DNA of 27,973 bases, from IMG/VR virus record IMGVR_UViG_3300010885_032458, positions 1 through 27,973 of that record. One strand, written 5' to 3'. The position numbers were made by a program, and so were the translations under genes. The notes under the pieces were generated by a model that saw only the letters and a program-made list of their open reading frames with translations, was not told the origin of the DNA and did no database searches. Of the stretch, positions 11,730 to 27,881 are shown piece after piece; position 1 is the stretch's first letter; each line of letters begins with the position of its first letter. The DNA comes from a virus.

Positions 11730-11783
11730 GCGGTATGATGCCCATTGCGTGGCTCAATGGTAGAGCTATGTGGTGGGTGCGTA

Positions 11784-14305: not shown

Positions 14306-14737
14306 CTATAACTTACCCCTGTCCTGGAACGAATAGTAGTCCGTATCTGTTATGATGATATGGTCGAGAAACTTGATTCCGAGCATCTTGGAACACTCCT
14401 TAGCAAGTTTCGTGACGGCGAGATCTTCCTTACTTGGTTCGTTGTTATTTGATGGATGGTTGTGTGCTAGTATAATCGACACTGAGCCAACTGCAATTGC
14501 AGGTTGAAACACCTCACGTGGATGGAACGTGCATGAAGTTGCTGTGCCAATTCCAATAGTGTTGTATGCTATCACGTCATGATTACCATCGAGACACAAA
14601 ACGATCAAGTGTTCCTTAGCGTTCGTTGTGAGAACTTTCTTTCGTATGAAGTCCGCGACCTGTTGTGGAGATCTAATCGCATCAACAATAGGAACTTTCT
14701 TGCCGTACTTGACCTGAACTTCACGAATATACTTCAT
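14306..14737 (-). CDS. radC: RadC-like JAMM (MPN) domain protein
   Basis: 143 residues, essentially only the JAMM domain of the RadC family. The zinc/catalytic set is complete: E42, H92-N-H94, S102 and D105, giving the exact H-x-H-x7-S-x2-D pattern in AHNHPSNNNEPSKED. Bacterial RadC proteins are longer and carry an N-terminal helix-hairpin-helix region, absent here. JAMM enzymes are usually isopeptidases or related metallohydrolases; the true activity of RadC is not established, and an old link to DNA repair is disputed. GAGG lies 7 bases before the ATG. The mRNA segment just upstream (14756-14822) is a hammerhead ribozyme whose cut would leave a 24-base leader with this ribosome binding site intact. 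Confidence 0.9.
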   Translation of the reverse strand: MKYIREVQVKYGKKVPIVDAIRSPQQVADFIRKKVLTTNAKEHLIVLCLDGNHDVIAYNTIGIGTATSCTFHPREVFQPAIAVGSVSIILAHNHPSNNNEPSKEDLAVTKLAKECSKMLGIKFLDHIIITDTDYYSFQDRGKL

Positions 14738-14755: not shown

Positions 14756-14822
14756 TCGCACTACACCAGGGGAAAAGGTATTAACCCCTGGTGTTTCGTC
14801 CTTACGGACTCGTCAGGTGCGA
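14756..14822 (-). ncRNA. Hammerhead ribozyme, type I, self-cleaving
   Basis: All core parts are present on the minus strand. Stem I: TCGCAC (14822-14817) with GTGCGA (14761-14756), 6 perfect pairs. Core CTGACGA (14816-14810). Stem II: GTCC (14809-14806), loop GTAA, GGAC (14801-14798). Then GAA (14797-14795). Stem III: ACACCAGGGG (14794-14785) with CCCCTGGTGT (14772-14763), 10 perfect pairs, 12-base loop. Cleavage triplet GTA, cut expected after A14762. The open ends are in stem I, so it is type I. It starts directly after the TAG of 14824-15021 and ends 18 bases before the RadC-like ATG. The cut would split the two cistrons. Both required G and A residues and the A-U pair next to the cut site are intact. 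Confidence 0.93.
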
Positions 14823-14823
14823 A

Positions 14824-15021
14824 CTAATAATTGATTGGTCTCCGTAACAATTCTAAGTGGGAGATCAGATCGTTGCGGATCGCATCCACTTGCGATATTG
14901 TATCCTTCGTCGTGATGTACTCTTGAGCAGAAAGGAAGTCACTGCTCAATTTACGGACCAGCTCCATGCGGTATGCGTTTAACTGGTCAAGGCGTTCGAC
15001 GGTTTCAATAGTGTTCAACAT
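14824..15021 (-). CDS. Hypothetical coiled-coil protein, 65 residues
   Basis: MLNTIETVERLDQLNAYRME, then helices rich in Leu, Arg and Asp (QVDAIRNDLISHLELLRRP). Start at ATG 15021 in a TAATATG junction with 15023-15217. Its stop codon directly abuts the hammerhead ribozyme, so its mRNA would end in a 2',3'-cyclic phosphate after cleavage. Function unknown. Confidence 0.75.
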   Translation of the reverse strand: MLNTIETVERLDQLNAYRMELVRKLSSDFLSAQEYITTKDTISQVDAIRNDLISHLELLRRPINY

Positions 15022-15022
15022 A

Positions 15023-15217
15023 TTACAGGATCCCTTCGTATTGTGTCTCCAGTTTCTCCAACTCTTTTCGAGCATCAACTAACTCGCCGTAGAGTTGATC
15101 GGCTTCATCGTACTTGCCCCAAAGGGAGCAATTATCCAGCTCGGCTGTAAGATATGTGATAGTGTCGTGGAGATCTCTAAGTTTCTCAATAATGTTTTCA
15201 ATGCTTTCGTGGCTCAT
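15023..15217 (-). CDS. Hypothetical coiled-coil protein, 64 residues
   Basis: MSHESIENIIEKLRDLHDTI, then a second charged helix (GELVDARKELEKLETQYEG). AAGGG and AAAGG precede the ATG. Similar layout to the gene that follows it; both could be subunits that pair with each other. No family recognised. Confidence 0.75.
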   Translation of the reverse strand: MSHESIENIIEKLRDLHDTITYLTAELDNCSLWGKYDEADQLYGELVDARKELEKLETQYEGIL

Positions 15218-20509: not shown

Positions 20510-20800
20510 CTAAGTATCTGTTTTTATAGCTGCTTTGGAACTGAAATTTCTCGTTTGCTGCTCTTGTTCTGTTCTGTCTAAGAATATAATGAGTGCTATA
20601 TTGTACCCATAGCCAGCGATGGCTGTTCTGTACTTGTACTTTGATTCTATATGATTCTGCACGTCTCGTACTTTCTGTCTCTGTGTATGTGGGAATCTGA
20701 ATACTACATCAACTCTCGTGGCATGGGGCGTCAGTGTATACGTGAGCTTGTTGTTCTCTTGTGCGTTATCGAGTTCTGCTTTTAATTTTGGATTGATCAT
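20510..20800 (-). CDS. Small-paralogue family member, 96 residues
   Basis: One of at least ten related proteins here. N-terminal helix MINPKLKAELDNAQENNKL, strand VDVVFRFPHT, helix VRDVQNHIESKYKYRTAIAG, then a hydrophobic strand (NIALIIFLD). It shares VQ-x-HIE-x-x-Y-x-YRT with its neighbour at 20797-21042, its closest relative. Start at ATG 20800 overlaps that gene's stop as ATGA. Function of the family unknown. Confidence 0.75.
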   Translation of the reverse strand: MINPKLKAELDNAQENNKLTYTLTPHATRVDVVFRFPHTQRQKVRDVQNHIESKYKYRTAIAGYGYNIALIIFLDRTEQEQQTRNFSSKAAIKTDT

Positions 20801-21042
20801 GTGTTCTTCTTGAGGGGTTGTTCTGGATAGACCCACATGACTGGACCTGTAATGCCTTCTATGACTTCTGTTCTATAGTTATATGCTGCTTCGATGTGCT
20901 GCTGCACTTTATGTATCTGGTCGAGGGTTGTGCTTTTGTTTGAAAATCTGATGTAGGCGTGGTCGTCACTGCTCACAAGGTATTTGAGAAACTGCTCGTC
21001 TTCTGCGTGTTTGAGTTCTTTGAGTAGTTGGAAGCTGATCAT
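20797..21042 (-). CDS. Small-paralogue family member, 81 residues
   Basis: MISFQLLKELKHAEDEQFLK is a clear family N-terminus. Then AYIRFSNKSTTLDQIHKVQQ, HIEAAYNYRTEVIEG and a final hydrophobic strand. Overlaps the genes on both sides by ATGA (21039-21042 and 20797-20800), making a translationally coupled trio with 21039-21332. Confidence 0.8.
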   Translation of the reverse strand: MISFQLLKELKHAEDEQFLKYLVSSDDHAYIRFSNKSTTLDQIHKVQQHIEAAYNYRTEVIEGITGPVMWVYPEQPLKKNT

Positions 21043-21332
21043 TGTGGTTTTGCTTTCTGCAATTCTTGTATCTCTTTCTTTGAGAGTGTGCGATTGAAAT
21101 ATGGATAGTATTGTGCTCGCTGTCTGTTGATGAGCTTTCTGAGATGCCCGACGATTTTGAGAGCATCTGGATCTCGTGCTAATGTGTCGAGGACGAGACG
21201 TTGATTGTGCACGTACGTGTGTCTATCGAATCGTGTGTTGCCTATTTTGATTGTGTCTCTGGGCGAGCCTGAGTACACGAGTGTGCGGAGCTTGTTGTGG
21301 TTGATGAATGGAAATTCATTTTTAAGGTTCAT
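21039..21332 (-). CDS. Hypothetical protein, 97 residues
   Basis: MNLKNEFPFINHNKLRTLVY, then a Asp/Arg/His-rich middle (RFDRHTYVHNQRLVLDTLAR) and a basic C-terminus (INRQRAQYYPYFNRTLSKKE). Not a family member. Promoter with TGC-extended TATATT lies 34 bases upstream. No ribosome binding site visible. First gene of the coupled trio; role unknown. Confidence 0.75.
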   Translation of the reverse strand: MNLKNEFPFINHNKLRTLVYSGSPRDTIKIGNTRFDRHTYVHNQRLVLDTLARDPDALKIVGHLRKLINRQRAQYYPYFNRTLSKKEIQELQKAKPQ

Positions 21333-21365
21333 ATTGGTTTTTGTCGAAGTTGGGCAACGATATCA

Positions 21366-21395
21366 AATATAGCACATGGCAAATGTATGCGTAAA
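21366..21395 (-). promoter_or_regulatory. Sigma70-like promoter for 21039-21332 and the two paralogues behind it
   Basis: -10 TATATT (21366-21371) with TGC extension, 18-base spacer, -35 TTTACG (21390-21395). Leader of about 27 bases. Confidence 0.65.
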
Positions 21396-21403
21396 CATTT
21401 TTA

Positions 21404-21673
21404 TTACGCTTCCCAAAAAATTAGCCACATAAGTTTTAACAATTGTTTTCGTGCTTCCATACTCATAGGTGTGTTCGATGCGTATGATGCTACTAAGAGT
21501 GCATTAAAATGTGCAAACAGCTGATTAACTGCCATGAAGCCTTCAGGCGTTTGTAGTAGCAAGTTGTGAACAGTGTCATGTAATAGCCACGGGGGTACGA
21601 AATAAGTATCATCTACTGTGTGCATGATTCCAATATGTGAGATGTATTTGTCGTATGGTCTTCCACGAATCAT
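21404..21673 (-). CDS. Hypothetical protein, 89 residues
   Basis: MIRGRPYDKYISHIGIMHTV, then FVPPWLLHDTVHNLLLQTPE and a long hydrophobic-aromatic C-terminal helix (EARKQLLKLMWLIFWEA). AGGGAG precedes the ATG by about 10 bases. Not a paralogue family member. The hydrophobic end may touch a membrane or a partner. Unknown. Confidence 0.7.
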   Translation of the reverse strand: MIRGRPYDKYISHIGIMHTVDDTYFVPPWLLHDTVHNLLLQTPEGFMAVNQLFAHFNALLVASYASNTPMSMEARKQLLKLMWLIFWEA

Positions 21674-21749
21674 ATAGCGTTGCTCCCTTTTTTGGTGACA
21701 TGCGTATCACACACCAGCAACGTAGGTTAGCACCGCGATCATAGTAGTG

Positions 21750-21974
21750 TTAGTTAAATGGCTTTTGTCGAATGTATATGATAAGTGATCCTGGAGTGTA
21801 TGCTTCCACATCATAGTGTTCTCTGATGTATCGTGTGAGTGCTGTTCTGCGTTTTCGTGAGTCTATTGAAAACACGATGTCTGCTGTTACTTTGTTTATA
21901 ACATAAACTTGTATGAGGTCTTGCTTCACTGCTGGCTGAAGGTCGTCTATCAGTTTTTGAAATGAGTCTTTCAT
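21750..21974 (-). CDS. Small-paralogue family member, 74 residues (divergent)
   Basis: MKDSFQKLIDDLQPAVKQDL is a family-like helix, followed by the strand ADIVFSID, helix TALTRYIREHYDVEAYTPGS and a last strand LIIYIRQK. It is the shortest and most divergent member. Starts inside the stop of the RHH/HTH gene (ATGA overlap), so the regulator and this protein are made together. Confidence 0.7.
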   Translation of the reverse strand: MKDSFQKLIDDLQPAVKQDLIQVYVINKVTADIVFSIDSRKRRTALTRYIREHYDVEAYTPGSLIIYIRQKPFN

Positions 21975-22345
21975 AAGTCTGTATAGTGCAATTCGTCGAT
22001 GATGAGTCTTCTGATGTGTGACACGGTGAAATGTATGTCGTAGTCTTGTGCAAGTGTGCGTTGAATGTGTGTATAGCTCATGCCAATGCTTGTCATGTAG
22101 AGCATGTGTTTGAGCACTTCACGTTCTTCGGGAGAGTTACGTCCAAAGCGTTTTGGCTTTGTCGAGTTTTTAAGTGTTTGTGGTTTTACTGTGAAATCTA
22201 CTTCTTTGCCGTCGAGCATGTTGAGGCAGTATGAAACACACCTCTTGATGAATGCTGCTTCTGTTTCATCGTAGTGTGATGCTGCACGTTTTACTGATTG
22301 CTTTACGGTCTTGTCGAGCGTGAGTGTGTATCGTGATTGTTTCAT
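21971..22345 (-). CDS. Putative transcription regulator, RHH-like plus C-terminal HTH, 124 residues
   Basis: N-terminus SRYTLTLDKTVKQSVKRAAS then DETEAAFIKRCVSYCLNMLD fits a ribbon-helix-helix fold (strand, helix, turn, helix). The C-terminal SPEEREVLKHMLYMTSIGMS and THIQRTLAQDYDIHFTVSHI look like a helix-turn-helix. A basic linker (NSTKPKRFGRNS) joins them. Likely binds DNA as a dimer; candidate operators are the palindromes near early promoters. AGAGAG upstream is a weak ribosome binding site. Confidence 0.7.
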   Translation of the reverse strand: MKQSRYTLTLDKTVKQSVKRAASHYDETEAAFIKRCVSYCLNMLDGKEVDFTVKPQTLKNSTKPKRFGRNSPEEREVLKHMLYMTSIGMSYTHIQRTLAQDYDIHFTVSHIRRLIIDELHYTDL

Positions 22346-22379
22346 GGATTTTATCTCTCTTTACTGTATAAACACTGTG

Positions 22380-22667
22380 TCAGTCGCATATTGTAAACGT
22401 AATGAATCGTCTTGAGTTGTTATCGCAGGTTTGACTGTCGCCAAAGTATTTCAGTGCACTAAAATAGTTATCGTCTCTGATTTGTGCGCCGTACTTGTGG
22501 ATGAGAATGTCTTTTAATTTTTGGATTTGATCATCGCTCGTCGTCGGCAACAAAACAACATCAATTTTCGCCGTTCGTCTATTGTAATCAAAACTATAAT
22601 TCCAGTGCTCAACAAGCCGCCGTTCTTCTGCATGATTGAGCTGAGTTAAAATTTTGTTGAGATTCAT
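22380..22667 (-). CDS. Small-paralogue family member, 95 residues
   Basis: MNLNKILTQLNHAEERRLVE (helix), KIDVVLLPTTSDDQIQKLKD, ILIHKYGAQIRD, then an insert and a last strand RFITFTICD. The LTQLNHAEERRLVE segment is one of the clearest copies of the family helix. No ribosome binding site; a 12-codon leader frame precedes it. Confidence 0.75.
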   Translation of the reverse strand: MNLNKILTQLNHAEERRLVEHWNYSFDYNRRTAKIDVVLLPTTSDDQIQKLKDILIHKYGAQIRDDNYFSALKYFGDSQTCDNNSRRFITFTICD

Positions 22668-22688
22668 ACGATGTGTTGTTATAGCTCT

Positions 22689-22727
22689 TCAATGGTCGCA
22701 ACAATTAAATCTGAGTGAATCGAGCAT
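22689..22727 (-). CDS. Possible leaderless 12-residue leader peptide
   Basis: MLDSLRFNCCDH, with its ATG 7 bases after the TAGAGT -10 of the promoter at 22735-22764, and its stop 21 bases before the next ATG. Too short to be sure; the arrangement matches the leaderless promoters elsewhere. Confidence 0.25.
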   Translation of the reverse strand: MLDSLRFNCCDH

Positions 22728-22734
22728 ATAATAT

Positions 22735-22764
22735 ACTCTAGCATACAGCGGATGGGTCTGTCAA
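22735..22764 (-). promoter_or_regulatory. Sigma70-like promoter for the 22380-22667 paralogue
   Basis: -35 TTGACA (22759-22764), 18-base spacer, TGC-extended -10 TAGAGT (22735-22740). Just downstream of the 60-residue gene's stop. Confidence 0.7.
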
Positions 22765-22795
22765 TACTTTTGGACAATCAGTGAGAAATGGAGAT

Positions 22796-22978
22796 TTAAT
22801 CGTCTTGGTCAAGAGTGTCTAATCCAAGAACTTTTGCTGCTTCTGCACATAGTTCTCGACCACGTTCTTGTGTGGTGTCTGCACTGTTTGTGGACTCTGC
22901 GTGAATTTCTGCGATTCGTCGCCATGTGCATCCGATGTCTCTGAGTGCTCTGATGAGTGTTGCTTCGAGTCTTGTCAT
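22796..22978 (-). CDS. Hypothetical protein, 60 residues, possible HTH
   Basis: MTRLEATLIRALRDIGCTWR, then RIAEIHAESTNSADTTQERG and an acidic end. The LIRALRDIGCTWRRIAE part looks like helix-turn-helix, which would suit a small regulator. Overlaps the preceding paralogue by ATGA. Role unknown. Confidence 0.7.
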   Translation of the reverse strand: MTRLEATLIRALRDIGCTWRRIAEIHAESTNSADTTQERGRELCAEAAKVLGLDTLDQDD

Positions 22979-23211
22979 GTGAGTGAGTGTCGATGTCTGT
23001 GGTACACGGAGAGCGATTTTTTACTTATCGACAAGTATGTATTGTAGTCATACACGAGTCTGATGTAAGCTGCGAGATTTTCTTTTTGGATAATCGTGAT
23101 GTTTGGATCCTTGAATCGTATCGTCGTCACGTAATTGCTCTGAATCGTAACTTTGATCAAGTGTTGCTCTTCTGCTTTGCTGAGTTGTCGTATAAGTTTT
23201 GTTGCAATCAT
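22975..23211 (-). CDS. Small-paralogue family member, 78 residues
   Basis: MIATKLIRQLSKAEEQHLIK (textbook family helix), TTIRFKDPNITIIQKENL, AAYIRLVYDYNTYLSIS, then a short basic end. Its start region, ATAGTAGCACTATGAT, is identical over 16 bases to that of 23498-23827, so the translation start was copied with a gene or exchanged. No Shine-Dalgarno. Confidence 0.8.
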   Translation of the reverse strand: MIATKLIRQLSKAEEQHLIKVTIQSNYVTTIRFKDPNITIIQKENLAAYIRLVYDYNTYLSISKKSLSVYHRHRHSLT

Positions 23212-23234
23212 AGTGCTACTATCTTGTTGTGTAC

Positions 23235-23501
23235 TTATCCCAAATCTTGGAACACGAACAACACGTTTGATGTTTCTGTCGAATTTGTCGTAAGTGGGCG
23301 CACTTTACACTGATATTCTTTTTCAATCTGAGCTGTGAGTGCAATTCGTGTATTGTACGGCGTTGTCTCGTTCAGTGTGATGAAGAGTGCGGTGATAGCG
23401 TTCTTCATTTTGTGCTTCTCTTTTTGTGGATATATTTCAACTCGTTTGATGAGCTTTTGAGCTTCTGCGATTTTGAGTTGTTCGATCAGTTTTTCAATCA
23501 T
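23235..23501 (-). CDS. Small-paralogue family member, 88 residues
   Basis: MIEKLIEQLKIAEAQKLIKR, the clearest family helix; then a basic insert, ALFITLNETTPYNTRIALTA, QIEKEYQCKVRPL and a last strand NVLFVFQDL. Overlaps the stop of 23498-23827 as ATGA, so it is translated after that gene. Confidence 0.8.
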   Translation of the reverse strand: MIEKLIEQLKIAEAQKLIKRVEIYPQKEKHKMKNAITALFITLNETTPYNTRIALTAQIEKEYQCKVRPLTTNSTETSNVLFVFQDLG

Positions 23502-23827
23502 GCAACGTAGAAGTTTAGCTCATACTTGCCAGACTTTTCCATTCTGTAAATTTGAATGTGGAGCATCTTTCTTTGTGGTTTGCCGTTCTTGTACAATTCA
23601 AGATGAAACTCGTCTGTCTTCCCTACACCGAGGTTTTTGTATGCAGTTGTTACCTTGTTAAACTCTTCTTCATCACTAATTTCATAGCCGTCTTTTTTCG
23701 TGTGATCGAGAGCTGTCTGTACAGCACTATGGAGTGTGTCATGATACAACTTATAGCGTGGCGCTTCGTTGAGCTGCTTACGGGCTGTTGTTGCGAGATG
23801 CTGCTTGAAAAGTTTCATGTCTATCAT
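23498..23827 (-). CDS. Conserved phage protein with capsid-targeting-like N-terminus, 109 residues
   Basis: N-terminus MIDMKLFKQHLATTARKQLN resembles a capsid-targeting peptide. The body YHDTLHSAVQTALDHTKKDG, then DEEEFNKVTTAYKNLGVGKT, ELYKNGKPQRKMLHIQIYRM and GKYELNFYV resembles a small protein I recall from many T4-like phages (pattern YHD-x-SAV-ALDHA, GKT, KNGKPQ). Function unknown but likely packed in virions. CATAAATA lies 8 bases before the ATG. Start may instead be the Met at 23818. Confidence 0.75.
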   Translation of the reverse strand: MIDMKLFKQHLATTARKQLNEAPRYKLYHDTLHSAVQTALDHTKKDGYEISDEEEFNKVTTAYKNLGVGKTDEFHLELYKNGKPQRKMLHIQIYRMEKSGKYELNFYVA

Positions 23828-23835
23828 AGTGCTAC

Positions 23836-23843
23836 TATTTATG
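23836..23843 (-). promoter_or_regulatory. Candidate late promoter for 23498-23827
   Basis: Minus strand CATAAATAG, one mismatch from TATAAATA, 8 bases before the ATG at 23827. It overlaps the stop codon of the paralogue at 23839-24138. Gives this capsid-targeting-like gene separate late control inside an early region. Confidence 0.45.
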
Positions 23844-24138
23844 ACTGCGGCACTTTCATCGTAATCATATCATCTGTTGGCATCTTGATCAACGTGCATC
23901 CATACTTGTCATGTAAAAGATTCATGAGAGCTTGAATCGTCTTTGAGGGTGTTGTCTTATGAAAATAAATCGAGAGATCGTAGTCTGTTGGCTTTTTGCT
24001 GCCGTTTCGCACGAGGTCTTGCGTCTCCGTGTAGTATAGAATGTTTGAGTCTGTGACGAGTCGAGCGTTCCACGACTTGATAAGGTTCTGTTCTGTTGCT
24101 GTTGTAAGCTGTCGAGCGATGTGTTCGATTGTTTTCAT
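23839..24138 (-). CDS. Small-paralogue family member, 99 residues
   Basis: MKTIEHIARQLTTATEQNLI K is the family helix, with HLK-like basic start. Then an insert, YDLSIYFHKTTPSKTIQALM, NLLHDKYGCTLIKMPTD and a final strand MITMKVPQS. Longest family member. ATG 24138 is 7 bases after a TATACT -10, so the leader is one base or none. Confidence 0.75.
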   Translation of the reverse strand: MKTIEHIARQLTTATEQNLIKSWNARLVTDSNILYYTETQDLVRNGSKKPTDYDLSIYFHKTTPSKTIQALMNLLHDKYGCTLIKMPTDDMITMKVPQS

Positions 24139-24145
24139 ATGAATC

Positions 24146-24175
24146 AGTATACACGATTCTGGAGCTTTCTGTCAA
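24146..24175 (-). promoter_or_regulatory. Sigma70-like promoter, near-leaderless type
   Basis: -35 TTGACA (24170-24175), 18-base spacer, -10 TATACT (24146-24151). ATG at 24138 follows after 7 bases. Drives the paralogue and probably the genes to its left. Confidence 0.8.
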
Positions 24176-24230
24176 TAGTGAAATTTGTTGGAAAGCTAAA
24201 TGTGCAGAAATGCTAAGAATCCAATTTGGA

Positions 24231-25424
24231 TTACGTTCGGCTTCTGTATGCCTCAAGTGCTTTCTTGATGATCTTTGCTGCTTGCTGTAAATCATCACAC
24301 GATAACACAAACGCAATTCGTACATAATCAGTGTGCTGTGTTGAGTGAAAGAAGAACGAGTGTGCTGGCGACACAAAAACAGTTTCGTCATTAAGGGCAA
24401 ACTCTTGCAACATGAAACGTGCAAAGTCTGCTGAGTTTTCTACTGGCAATTTTGCGAGCACGTAAAATCCACCTTCAGGTGTCTGAAACTCTACGTCTAA
24501 AATCTCTTTGAGCCCTGCGACTAAAACGTTTCGTCGCTGTTCATACTCTTGGACAGCATCGAGTAAATAACTGTCACTGATGTGCTTGAGCATATGCGCT
24601 GCTGCGACTTGTTCAACTGTTGGTGCTGATACTCGTGTGCTGGCAAAATTTGTGGCTGCATCGAGTAGTTCTTTGTTCCATGTGAGAATGCAACCAATGC
24701 GGGCGCCACATAAGCTGTAACGTTTTGAAATACTATCAACAACGACAACGTGCTTATTTTCTGGCGCAATCTGAAACACACACGATGGCTTTCTATCATC
24801 AAACACAAACTCACGATAGACTTCATCGACGATTAACACGATGTCGTGTTTTTCACATACTGAGATGAGTAGTTTCATTTCGTCGTGTGTATATACAGTG
24901 CCAGATGGATTGTTTGGGTTGCAAATGAGTATTGCTTTCGTGCGTTGTGTGATGAGCTTGTCGAGTTGTGTTTCTACATCGTGTGGCAAATGGAAGTTGT
25001 CTGCTAGTGAACACTCAACTGGAACAAGTTTCGCACCAGTAATAGTGGCGAAGCCAGCATAGTTTGCATACGATGGCGAAAACACTATAATTTCATCATC
25101 AACATCACAACACGTATTGAAGATGAGTGTGAGTGCTTCACTTGAGCCAGATGTGATGAGTAGCTGCTCATGTGTGACGTTCAGTGTGTATTGTGTGTTG
25201 AGTGTTGTTGACCACTCTTCAAGAAGAGCTTTGTTGCCTGATGCTGCATCGTATGCGAGCACTGGTGAGGTGAATGTGCGCAAGCCATCAAAAAATTCTT
25301 GTGGTGAATGAAGATCAGGCTGACCAATGTTAAGCCCGTAGACACGAGAGATCGTCGTCTTAGGTGGGACTAAGTTTCGTATCGGCGAAACTGATGTTGA
25401 TTGCGCACGTTTTGATAACTTCAT
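24231..25424 (-). CDS. PLP-dependent aminotransferase, class I/II fold
   Basis: 397 residues, a normal full length. It should move an amino group between an amino acid and a 2-oxo acid using pyridoxal phosphate. Key residues read directly: NPNNPSG (169-175, N172 contacts the cofactor), D200 and Y203 in VDEVYREF, catalytic K234 in SISK, R242 in GARIG, and R369 in YVRIAF for substrate carboxylate. N-terminal LNIGQPD and the ITSGSSEALTLIF segment also fit. Substrate unknown; aspartate or aromatic amino acids are the commonest for this fold. Aminotransferases are rare in phage genomes. CATAAATA lies 6 bases before the ATG, so it may be a late, leaderless mRNA. Confidence 0.9.
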   Translation of the reverse strand: MKLSKRAQSTSVSPIRNLVPPKTTISRVYGLNIGQPDLHSPQEFFDGLRTFTSPVLAYDAASGNKALLEEWSTTLNTQYTLNVTHEQLLITSGSSEALTLIFNTCCDVDDEIIVFSPSYANYAGFATITGAKLVPVECSLADNFHLPHDVETQLDKLITQRTKAILICNPNNPSGTVYTHDEMKLLISVCEKHDIVLIVDEVYREFVFDDRKPSCVFQIAPENKHVVVVDSISKRYSLCGARIGCILTWNKELLDAATNFASTRVSAPTVEQVAAAHMLKHISDSYLLDAVQEYEQRRNVLVAGLKEILDVEFQTPEGGFYVLAKLPVENSADFARFMLQEFALNDETVFVSPAHSFFFHSTQHTDYVRIAFVLSCDDLQQAAKIIKKALEAYRSRT

Positions 25425-25430
25425 CGAACA

Positions 25431-25438
25431 TATTTATG
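25431..25438 (-). promoter_or_regulatory. Candidate late promoter for the aminotransferase
   Basis: Minus strand CATAAATA, one mismatch from TATAAATA, with 6 bases to the ATG at 25424. It overlaps the stop codon of 25434-25946. The gene has no ribosome binding site. Confidence 0.4.
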
Positions 25439-25946
25439 TCCACAAGAAACCACGAACTTTCAGTACCTTTTGCATCATCTTCGTGTCTTCGTCGTAGTAT
25501 TTGTTTTCGAGCTTTTCTGCCTTTAAAATCATCGGCATGAGGAGCGTTTCGTCTCGCTGCTCGACTGGCAGTTCAAAAAATGCGTTAAGACCCGCTACTT
25601 CGTCTGGATTTGGTCGTGCGGATCGAAGATCTTTCCACCATATGTACACATCGCGAATGACTTCAGGTCCGTTTGGTACTGTAAGGCCTACGCTAGTGTA
25701 GCACGATTCCATACTGTTCAAGTGCTGTAAACCACGCTCACGAGATCTGATTAAGTTGTCTGAGCGAAGCCACCGAGGTAGTTTTAACCATAACCAATCT
25801 TTGAGTGTGTATGGTGCGTCCACCTCCATGAACGAACATTCAATTTCAACAAAATCGACAACGATCTGCATGACTGCATGAAGAAGAATTGAATCAGAAT
25901 CAAAATGGTCTTTTTTGTTGAGTGTTTGTATGTTTAACTTTTTCAT
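25434..25946 (-). CDS. Conserved phage-type protein, 170 residues, function unknown
   Basis: MKKLNIQTLNKKDHFDSDSI, then a helix (LLHAVMQIVVDFVEIECSFM), KDWLWLKLPRWLRSDNLIRS, ESCYTSVGLTVPNGPEVIRD and VYIWWKDLRSARPNPDEVAG. Similar tryptophan-rich proteins occur in other large phages without assigned role. Start at ATG 25946 chosen because a longer frame would run into tRNA-Pro. No ribosome binding site; the transcript's 5' end may come from tRNA-Pro processing. Confidence 0.7.
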   Translation of the reverse strand: MKKLNIQTLNKKDHFDSDSILLHAVMQIVVDFVEIECSFMEVDAPYTLKDWLWLKLPRWLRSDNLIRSRERGLQHLNSMESCYTSVGLTVPNGPEVIRDVYIWWKDLRSARPNPDEVAGLNAFFELPVEQRDETLLMPMILKAEKLENKYYDEDTKMMQKVLKVRGFLWT

Positions 25947-25959
25947 ATGAATATCAATG

Positions 25960-26034
25960 TCGGGGTAGCTGGATTTGAACCAACGACCTCCTGCTCCCAA
26001 AACAGGCGCTCTAGCCGGGCTGAGCTACACCCCG
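25960..26034 (-). tRNA. tRNA-Pro (UGG)
   Basis: Minus strand acceptor CGGGGTG with TACCCCG (one G-U); D-arm TAGCTCAGCCCGGCTAGAGC; anticodon stem CCTGT/GCAGG with loop TTTGGGA (TGG, Pro); T-arm GTTGG-TTCAAAT-CCAGC. First base C and discriminator A as usual for tRNA-Pro. Confidence 0.95.
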
Positions 26035-26043
26035 ATGAAAAAA

Positions 26044-26119
26044 TGGCGGAACCGATGGGACTCGAACCCACGACCTCTCCCGTGACAGGGGAGCGTTCTA
26101 ACCACTGAACTACGATTCC
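26044..26119 (-). tRNA. tRNA-Asp (GUC) with encoded CCA
   Basis: Minus strand acceptor GGAATCG with CGGTTCC, discriminator G; anticodon stem CTCCC/GGGAG with loop CTGTCAC (GTC, Asp); T-arm CGTGG-GTTCGAGT-CCCAT (one mismatch-type pair). The CCA end is encoded (26044-26046), unlike the other three tRNAs here. Confidence 0.95.
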
Positions 26120-26182
26120 GTAATAATCACTATATCAAAACTATATGGCGATGTCAATTATAAAATTTTGTGGATATTCTTA

Positions 26183-27070
26183 TTAGTATATATCCACTTT
26201 GTTTCTCAAATTTTTTGTGAGAAGATTTTCACGTGCCATACGAGTAAACATGAGCTTGCGAAACTTTGCGCCATATCGTCTGTTCAATCCATCAAGTGAT
26301 GGCATATACGTCATAATGTCTGCCCATGTGAGCTTATCATACTTTTTGTCACCAATTCTACGTTTCAATTCTTGAATTTGATTCACAAACGGTGTGATCT
26401 CAAGTGGCGTCAAGTAAATATCCTCTTCACCTTTTGTGACGTGCTTTTTGTATGATGCATCAACTGCGTTGCGTGTTGATACTATGTCACCATCTGCTTG
26501 CTTGATTTTTTGAAGATCGGCGTTGAATCGTGAAAACTTTTTATTCAAATGTTGATTGTGTAGCGAGTCATCAAGCCAATGTGTCAACTCATGGCGAATC
26601 GTAGACAATAAACGAATATCTGATGTTTCGTTCGTGAGCATGGCAAGCTGATGGTGTGGTATGTGATTCAGTCGATATGCCATAGCTTCCCACACACTCA
26701 ATGGTAAACCAATCACAATTTCTTTTGTGAGCATATTGTATGAATTGCTGGCGCCGTGTGGCAGTATAGCATACACTTTAATTTTAATTGGATTGATTTT
26801 GTGTGCTTGTTGTGCTGCGGCTGAAGATAGTTGTCCACTACTAAACGTTTTGATCACTTTGTGATTGACTGAGCCGCCGACTACGTGGCGCGACACAACT
26901 TCTTTGAACTGTTTTTCTAGCTCTTCAACACTAAGAACCCCATGCTTTTTCCAAACTGCTTGTAAATCTTTGTATAGCCGCTTCAAAGGAGCAAAAACCA
27001 TGTCGATGTCTTTTTTATCAACATCAATGAGCTTTTCGACTAAAAATTCTTTAAAAAGTTTAATTGCCAT
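26183..27070 (-). CDS. HExxH zinc metalloprotease with capsid-targeting-like N-terminus
   Basis: 295 residues. H160-E-L-T-H164 in STIRHELTHWLDD is a standard zinc-protease helix; a likely third ligand is the Glu in YLTPLEITPFVN about 60 residues on (gluzincin style). Before it, IKVYAILPHGA and KEIVIGLPLSVW suggest the strands of a peptidase fold. N-terminus MAIKLFKEFLVEKLIDVD resembles a capsid-targeting peptide, and GATAAATA lies 7 bases upstream. The simplest reading is a protease loaded in the head and injected to act on host proteins, or one acting in virion maturation. Substrate unknown. No ribosome binding site. Confidence 0.8.
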   Translation of the reverse strand: MAIKLFKEFLVEKLIDVDKKDIDMVFAPLKRLYKDLQAVWKKHGVLSVEELEKQFKEVVSRHVVGGSVNHKVIKTFSSGQLSSAAAQQAHKINPIKIKVYAILPHGASNSYNMLTKEIVIGLPLSVWEAMAYRLNHIPHHQLAMLTNETSDIRLLSTIRHELTHWLDDSLHNQHLNKKFSRFNADLQKIKQADGDIVSTRNAVDASYKKHVTKGEEDIYLTPLEITPFVNQIQELKRRIGDKKYDKLTWADIMTYMPSLDGLNRRYGAKFRKLMFTRMARENLLTKNLRNKVDIY

Positions 27071-27076
27071 ATAGTT

Positions 27077-27346
27077 TTATTTATCAAGCGTGATGTTTAA
27101 TACATAATGATAGTGTCGTGATGCATAATGTCGATGGCATTCAATACGCATTTTATGGATTGACTGATAATTCTTTTTAATTGTCTCAACAACTTTATCA
27201 ATTGTGATCGCATCAGTCTCTTTGTGGAACGTGATTGTCACATGTGGGCAATTTACACTGAGAGACAAAATGAGATTGCGGTCATGCGCAACAACAAGCT
27301 GCTCAAGAAACAATTCGACAGGTTTTCTACCATGCTGCGTTGTCAT
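27077..27346 (-). CDS. Small-paralogue family member, 89 residues
   Basis: RKPVELFLEQLVVAHDRNLI family helix, HVTITFHKETDAITIDKVVE, TIKKNYQSIHKMRIE and a final strand HYVLNITLDK. N-terminus a bit longer than others. Overlaps the previous paralogue by ATGA. Its stop lies next to the metalloprotease start, but coupling there is loose. Confidence 0.8.
   Translation of the reverse strand: MTTQHGRKPVELFLEQLVVAHDRNLILSLSVNCPHVTITFHKETDAITIDKVVETIKKNYQSIHKMRIECHRHYASRHYHYVLNITLDK
27078..27085 (-). promoter_or_regulatory. Candidate late promoter for the metalloprotease
   Basis: Minus strand GATAAATA, one mismatch from TATAAATA, with 7 bases before the ATG at 27070. It lies over the last codons of the paralogue at 27077-27346, so coding constraint (D-K-stop) may explain part of the match. 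Confidence 0.35.
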
Positions 27347-27603
27347 GCGCCTTGATACGTTTGTTTGACTTCCATGTACAGTGTAAGATGTCTTTTGTGA
27401 CTTGGTGATATGTACTCACCAATCTGCATATATTGCATATCGTAGTTCTTATCGATGTAATCTTTGATTTTTGATACTGTGTCGAATGGTGTATACTTTT
27501 GAAATACAATTTCTACTCTTGGAAACTGTATGATGCGAGCGTGAATTAGTTGCGACTCGTCTGCTTGTTTTAGCTCTTTGTACAATTGTTCAATGGGTTT
27601 CAT
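27343..27603 (-). CDS. Small-paralogue family member, 86 residues
   Basis: MKPIEQLYKELKQADESQLI family helix, RVEIVFQKYTPFDTVSKIKD, YIDKNYDMQYMQIGEY and a last strand HLTLYMEVKQ. Coupled by ATGA on both sides: middle of a three-gene paralogue run. Confidence 0.8.
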   Translation of the reverse strand: MKPIEQLYKELKQADESQLIHARIIQFPRVEIVFQKYTPFDTVSKIKDYIDKNYDMQYMQIGEYISPSHKRHLTLYMEVKQTYQGA

Positions 27604-27881
27604 GGTTTGCTTGGGGCTTTTATTTTCATCTCAACTTTCATGGCGTTCGTATCCGCGTTTGATTCGTCGTTTACAACTGATAGCCATGCTTCTGTGTCTT
27701 CATATGCTCGTTCGATGTGTTTTCGTAGTTGGATGATTGACATGGAACTTGTTCCAATTGGAAACACAACTCGAATGCTCAAAAACCCAGGTGCGTGATG
27801 ACGAGTACACACCGCACTGTCGATAAGACCTTTTGCGTGTGCTGTTTGTAATTGGAGCAATAGGTGTTCTGTTGTCTTCAT
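27600..27881 (-). CDS. Small-paralogue family member, 93 residues
   Basis: MKTTEHLLLQLQTAHAKGLI family helix, LSIRVVFPIGTSSMSIIQLR, KHIERAYEDTEAWLSVV, then a basic beta-like tail (MKVEMKIKAPSKP). ATG 27881 has no ribosome binding site. First paralogue of the three-gene run at the window's right end. Confidence 0.75.
   Translation of the reverse strand: MKTTEHLLLQLQTAHAKGLIDSAVCTRHHAPGFLSIRVVFPIGTSSMSIIQLRKHIERAYEDTEAWLSVVNDESNADTNAMKVEMKIKAPSKP

Follow-up and report, generated by a model that had tools for sequence, protein, structure and literature searches.

A type I hammerhead ribozyme abutting a stop codon in a T4-like virus is a probable divider of a polycistronic phage mRNA

We identified a complete type I hammerhead ribozyme on the minus strand (14823-14756) of a 27,973-base IMG/VR record, hereafter the window. 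The window is probably a fragment of a virus genome. The virus is T4-like, with the baseplate hub gp5 and wedge gp25 identified in the window, and no direct DNA relatives were found among 50,697 named phages. On the balance of the evidence below we think it probable that the hammerhead is functional and would cut its own nascent polycistronic mRNA once, dividing the mRNA of a set of small genes from that of a RadC-like protein, in a role that is not specific to RadC.

All required core bases (C3 U4 G5 A6 N7 G8 A9 and G12 A13 A14) were present. Both base-level features of type I hammerheads were also found, the A15.1-U16.1 pair as A14794-U14763 and H17 as A14762, which is not G. Stems of 6, 4, and 10 bp surround the core, with stems II and III closed by loops and stem I open (Table 1). 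Counting against the functional reading, the cleavage triplet, GUA, is a minority type, with A at position 17 in 13/121 phage hammerheads and C in the rest. An initial annotation, made from the letters of the window, had placed the stems, core, GUAA loop, and cleavage triplet exactly where we found them, and its 24-base leader with a ribosome binding site was likewise recovered (AUG at 14737, preceded by GAGG). It had also started the ribozyme directly after the stop codon. Stem I in fact begins one base further on, with U14823 in between, although this base is apparently part of the peripheral motif described below.

Table 1 Features of the hammerhead ribozyme and its transcription unit in the window.
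Feature	Position	Strand	Evidence or remark
Sigma-70 promoter TTGACA-18-TATAAT, TG before the -10 (extended -10)	15608-15579	minus	12/12 consensus matches, best site in the window
First gene of unit, 99 aa	15247..15546	minus	orthologue in syntenic relatives
Second gene, 64 aa, coiled-coil-like	15023..15217	minus	sub-threshold coiled-coil profile match
Third gene, coiled-coil-like, ~65 aa from ATG 15021 (84 aa from a TTG)	14824..15021	minus	
TAG stop of third gene	14826-14824	minus	
U(-1), unpaired, 5' of stem I, faces U14755	14823	minus	
Stem I 5' strand, UCGCAC, 6 bp with 14761-14756	14822-14817	minus	sequence, fold, covariance model
Catalytic core CUGACGA (C3 to A9)	14816-14810	minus	sequence, covariance model
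Stem II, 4 bp, GUCC/GGAC, GUAA tetraloop 14805-14802	14809-14798	minus	sequence, fold, covariance model
Catalytic core GAA (G12, A13, A14)	14797-14795	minus	sequence, covariance model
Stem III, 10 bp, 14794-14785 with 14772-14763, 12-nt loop, includes A15.1-U16.1	14794-14763	minus	sequence, fold
A17 (H17), base 5' of the predicted cut 14762/14761	14762	minus	hammerhead alignment; predicted cleavage
Stem I 3' strand, GUGCGA, predicted 5' end of downstream mRNA	14761-14756	minus	sequence, fold, covariance model
UAA tail 3' of stem I, probable partner of GUAA loop	14755-14753	minus	co-occurrence in unrelated phages
24-nt leader of predicted downstream mRNA, GAGG ribosome binding site before AUG	14761-14738	minus	sequence
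RadC-like JAB-domain protein, 143 aa, HNHP motif intact	14306..14737	minus	Pfam PF04002 E 1.9e-40, PHROG 10276

The minimum free energy structure of the segment was precisely the hammerhead fold (z = -3.1 for 96 nt and -5.6 for 74 nt). Stems of at least 6/4/10 bp occurred in 0/1500 dinucleotide-preserving shuffles of the window, and even stems of 4/4/5 bp arose at a rate of 0.0007 per window shuffled in this manner. A covariance-model search, the check proposed with the initial annotation, detected the ribozyme at 46.4 bits (E = 4.3e-11) using a model trained on 47 hammerheads from other viral contigs with the window's own excluded. The training rows were picked by pairing, and their 100% pairing is therefore by construction and not evidence. 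With speed filters on, this phage model retained only a 23.7-bit partial match in the window; a run of the full model without these filters found no second hammerhead in the 28 kb, the next-best site scoring 9.7 bits. At the level of sequence, the hammerhead is confirmed to the base.

Against the Rfam 15 models RF00163, RF00008, and RF03152 the window ribozyme did not reach the gathering thresholds, with sub-threshold matches to RAGATH-1-hammerhead (25.0 bits, cut-off 56.3) and Hammerhead_3 (20.5 bits, cut-off 48.5). A gathering threshold is a curated library cut-off and not a biochemical definition. Across the same 13 loci, Rfam at its own thresholds reported 2 hammerheads vs 57 with the phage model, for which some of these loci had contributed training rows. 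In the phage loci tested, almost every type I hammerhead escapes standard Rfam annotation, which weakens the one point in favor of a chance structure that is merely hammerhead-like, namely the Rfam thresholds. With none of the shuffles reaching stems this good and an E-value of 4e-11 under the phage-trained model, such a chance resemblance is in practice already refuted by the shuffle and covariance-model statistics, and we give it a negligible probability.

We scanned IMG/VR with a core pattern holding three fixed stem II pairs. Among the 120 viral matches with enough flanking sequence, 103 closed into hammerheads (82 type I and 21 type III) vs approximately one closure expected in all from shuffled flanks. 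This count is a non-circular test of pairing, and the excess indicates that the core pattern marks real ribozymes. Hammerheads of this sort proved common in uncultured phages. Several uncultured phage contigs contained 4 to 9 type I hammerheads between co-directional genes. Contigs L176, L132, L135, L136, L141, L032, L092, and L024 had 4-9 each at successive gene ends, and in several of them the TAA stop formed the final three bases of the stem I 5' strand. L132 also codes for a phage RNA polymerase. Three of these contigs (L135:2072-2188, L141:2766-2884, L132:6654-6750; reverse strand numbering) appear to have very long insertions in stem III, 60 to 100 nt in length, which may hold content of their own. 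A hammerhead in L061 (2860-2740, minus) starts just past a TTGACA/TATACT promoter and upstream of a winged-helix HTH_39 gene; from there it would shorten the transcript at its 5' end instead of dividing an operon. A near-identical ribozyme occurs in L065. HTH_39 was found after 5/81 hammerheads. The 81 proteins downstream of hammerheads matched 60 different PHROG families.

The positions of 208 independent phage hammerheads from later-gathered loci were compared with random nearby positions. Relative to the 5' edge of stem I, an upstream open frame ended between -12 and +10 in 75% of the 208 vs 7% of random positions, the stop abutted stem I exactly (-1 to +1) in 24% vs 0.9%, and the core CUGA supplied the stop codon through its UGA in 17% vs 0.4%. 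The next start codon with a ribosome-binding-like sequence followed at a median of 30 nt past the cut. Co-directional gene gaps without a hammerhead had a median of 2 nt. The window case has its stop one base before stem I and its AUG 24 nt past the predicted cut. Compact genomes alone account for part of this rule; the stop overlapping the ribozyme is the less trivial part.

The periphery of the window ribozyme also follows a pattern found elsewhere. The initial annotation had noted no obvious loop-loop partner for the GUAA loop, a view that the recurrence of a GUAA loop, 6-bp stem I, and 3' UAA in unrelated phages does not support. Loop II type was linked to the sequence just outside stem I in the first set (P = 2e-10, uncorrected for relatedness), and the motif was retested on loci gathered afterwards by patterns fixing only the core and loop. 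Hammerheads with UNAAU loops had a 6-bp stem I flanked by A and A in 119/119 cases, spanning 48 different stem I sequences. Those with GUAA loops had U directly 3' of stem I in 38/45 independent cases vs 0/119 for UNAAU. Where the GUAA loop was combined with a 6-bp stem I, the 3' U was present in 37/37 cases, which comprise 21 different stem I sequences, and in 24 the next two bases were AA; Y(-1) in these cases follows from U(+1) and the stem-length definition and was left uncounted. The window ribozyme matches the GUAA class (GUAA, 6 bp, U.U, UAA), which makes its UAA tail a probable candidate partner of the loop. As a negative control, the GUAA pattern had 17 matches in 257 Gb of bacterial and archaeal genomes, none of which was type I and 15 of which had no stem II. 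In the whole phage set, 4-mer complementarity between loop II and the first 8 nt 3' of stem I was in modest excess (18 vs 6.6 expected). For the window we do not claim a Watson-Crick pseudoknot (kissing helix) between loop II and the flank, which would involve just UAA/UUA, or a distant UUAC before the AUG.

Together, the 208 hammerheads and the window case yield a precise rule: the ribozyme sits on a stop, a start lies approximately 30 nt past the cut, and two loop II classes have matching stem I ends. Ever since phage hammerheads were discovered, their role has been in question (PMC6155905), and this rule makes it easier to test. As far as a partial search of the freely accessible literature shows, neither the stop-codon statistics nor the pair of loop classes seems to have been described.

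The unit containing the ribozyme opens with a promoter just ahead of the first of three small genes, after which come the ribozyme and RadC. The promoter probably starts the operon, and from its sequence and position we infer that it drives the unit. The early operon of the initial annotation is therefore plausible, given a 12/12 promoter immediately ahead of the first gene of the unit, and its RadC-like assignment of the downstream gene was supported by Pfam (RadC, E = 2e-40). Near-perfect sigma-70 promoters on the minus strand were found at 26157, 24175, 22764, 18635, 16370, and 15608, each just before a gene or tRNA and several with an extended -10. These six are probably early promoters of the phage. 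The region 20510-27881 of the window held many tandem genes for proteins of 74-109 aa in a similar layout, with at least three pairs of recognisable paralogues (BLASTP, E 1e-6 to 1e-8) and others too diverged, and a class I/II aminotransferase gene (24231-25424, minus) adjoined this small-gene array. On the strand opposite the four tRNA genes, 11739-11779 (+) contained a tRNA-like D arm (GTGGCTCAATGGTAGAGC) that ARAGORN did not call and that may be a tRNA remnant.

A special tie between ribozyme and RadC was not supported by comparison with other viruses. A single-sequence RadC scan of viral contigs had no match, and a two-sequence RadC profile recovered 19 RadC-bearing viral loci, 0 of which had a hammerhead near RadC. 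Among the 81 genes after hammerheads, the RadC family accounted for two, one being the window's own, and hammerhead-bearing phage DNA had one RadC only, located two genes downstream of a hammerhead. We rejected RadC as the cargo of the ribozyme on these counts (0/19 and 2/81). In a syntenic relative whose hub is 60% identical, the first gene, RadC (58%), and the gene following RadC are retained. There, the RadC AUG lies 2 nt past the preceding stop with no hammerhead, and the gene directly before RadC is not recognisably equivalent to the third gene of the window. The hammerhead was also absent from all recovered baseplate-hub relatives. Judged from these comparisons of sequence, the window ribozyme is sporadic, a probable phage processing element, and its RadC neighborhood looks incidental.

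Hammerhead cleavage yields a 2',3'-cyclic phosphate and a 5'-OH. By this established chemistry, a single co-transcriptional cut between 14762 and 14761 would leave an upstream mRNA carrying the promoter-proximal small genes and ending in the ribozyme body, with its 10-bp hairpin and cyclic phosphate, while the RadC mRNA would begin with a 5'-OH and the 24-nt leader. Once cut, the leader with its ribosome binding region is predicted to fold no more stably than shuffled sequence. A likely benefit would be to let the two mRNAs differ in stability or dosage. With the upstream stop directly at the ribozyme, a ribosome terminating there would sit over stem I and some of the core, and translation may gate the cut. 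The mRNA-divider use proposed in the initial annotation agrees with the 208 other phage hammerheads and with an earlier prophage proposal (PMC3088659).

In a broader reading, the window ribozyme would be one instance of a widespread, virus-specific, translation-coupled RNA-dicing system. Its type I hammerheads would be built on stop codons, with a TAA or TAG inside stem I or at its edge, or with the core UGA itself as the stop, and ribosome termination would expose or hide the ribozyme, timing the separation of each gene's mRNA. We regard this general scheme as speculative and rather unlikely. A possible reading, though one we find clearly less probable than an mRNA divider, is that the selected feature is the upstream 3' end, where the ribozyme body stays as a terminator-like stabilizer (hairpin plus cyclic phosphate), with any consequence for RadC a by-product. 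The upstream product would indeed keep the GC-rich stem III of 10 bp, a search of the interval from the third gene to RadC returned no intrinsic terminator, and many phage hammerheads occur at gene ends whatever follows (81 proteins in 60 PHROG families, RadC 2). However, phages of this kind also commonly have type III hammerheads, in which the body remains with the downstream RNA.

The ribozyme could also be a recently acquired or decaying passenger that may cut without anything depending on the cut. Its absence from the syntenic relative with the 2-nt stop-AUG gap, from all other RadC loci, and from the baseplate-hub relatives gives no sign of long-term conservation of this instance, and its single copy in the window is consistent with such an origin. 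Yet all core bases, the three stems, and the peripheral motif are intact, although drift should quickly have cost a 67-nt element one of them, and its placement obeys the same rule as hundreds of others, so we consider a passenger improbable. Hammerheads elsewhere mark retrozymes and viroid-like circles (PMC7761336), which raises the idea of an RNA circle or retrozyme-like mobile element, or of a twin ribozyme pair excising RNA. That origin is already disfavored and very improbable here: the ribozyme is a single copy, the window contains no other hammerhead, none of the genes tested is a reverse transcriptase, and the flanks consist of ordinary phage genes in conserved order.

Type I hammerheads are already known from phages, and an mRNA divider is a known kind of element, proposed for prophages in 2011. 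Perreault et al. 2011 reported type I, II, and III hammerheads in prophage intergenic regions whose flanking genes had no constant identity, and proposed that long phage transcripts are cut into operon- or gene-length mRNAs (PMC3088659). Clustered prophage hammerheads from A. tumefaciens and others cleave in vitro, and one set does so in E. coli (PMC3088659). The window differs from these: its virus is T4-like, and its one type I hammerhead abuts a stop codon and has a GUAA-loop/UAA-tail periphery. The term "stop codon" is absent from the main text of PMC3088659, and the position rule was apparently not stated there. RAGATH-1-hammerhead (RF03152), the best sub-threshold Rfam match, has the hammerhead core in common with the window ribozyme, but the extra upstream hairpin of that model is missing in the window, where only AU/AU at the stop codon fills its place in the alignment. 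Type I hammerheads of metazoan satellite DNA and retrozymes share the open stem I and catalytic core, and their loop II contacts stem I (PMC6155905, PMC7761336). Located in repeats, they frequently combine a weak stem III with a looped stem I extension (PMC6155905, PMC7761336), whereas the window ribozyme is a single copy with a 10-bp stem III and a 6-bp stem I that ends in a terminal mismatch.
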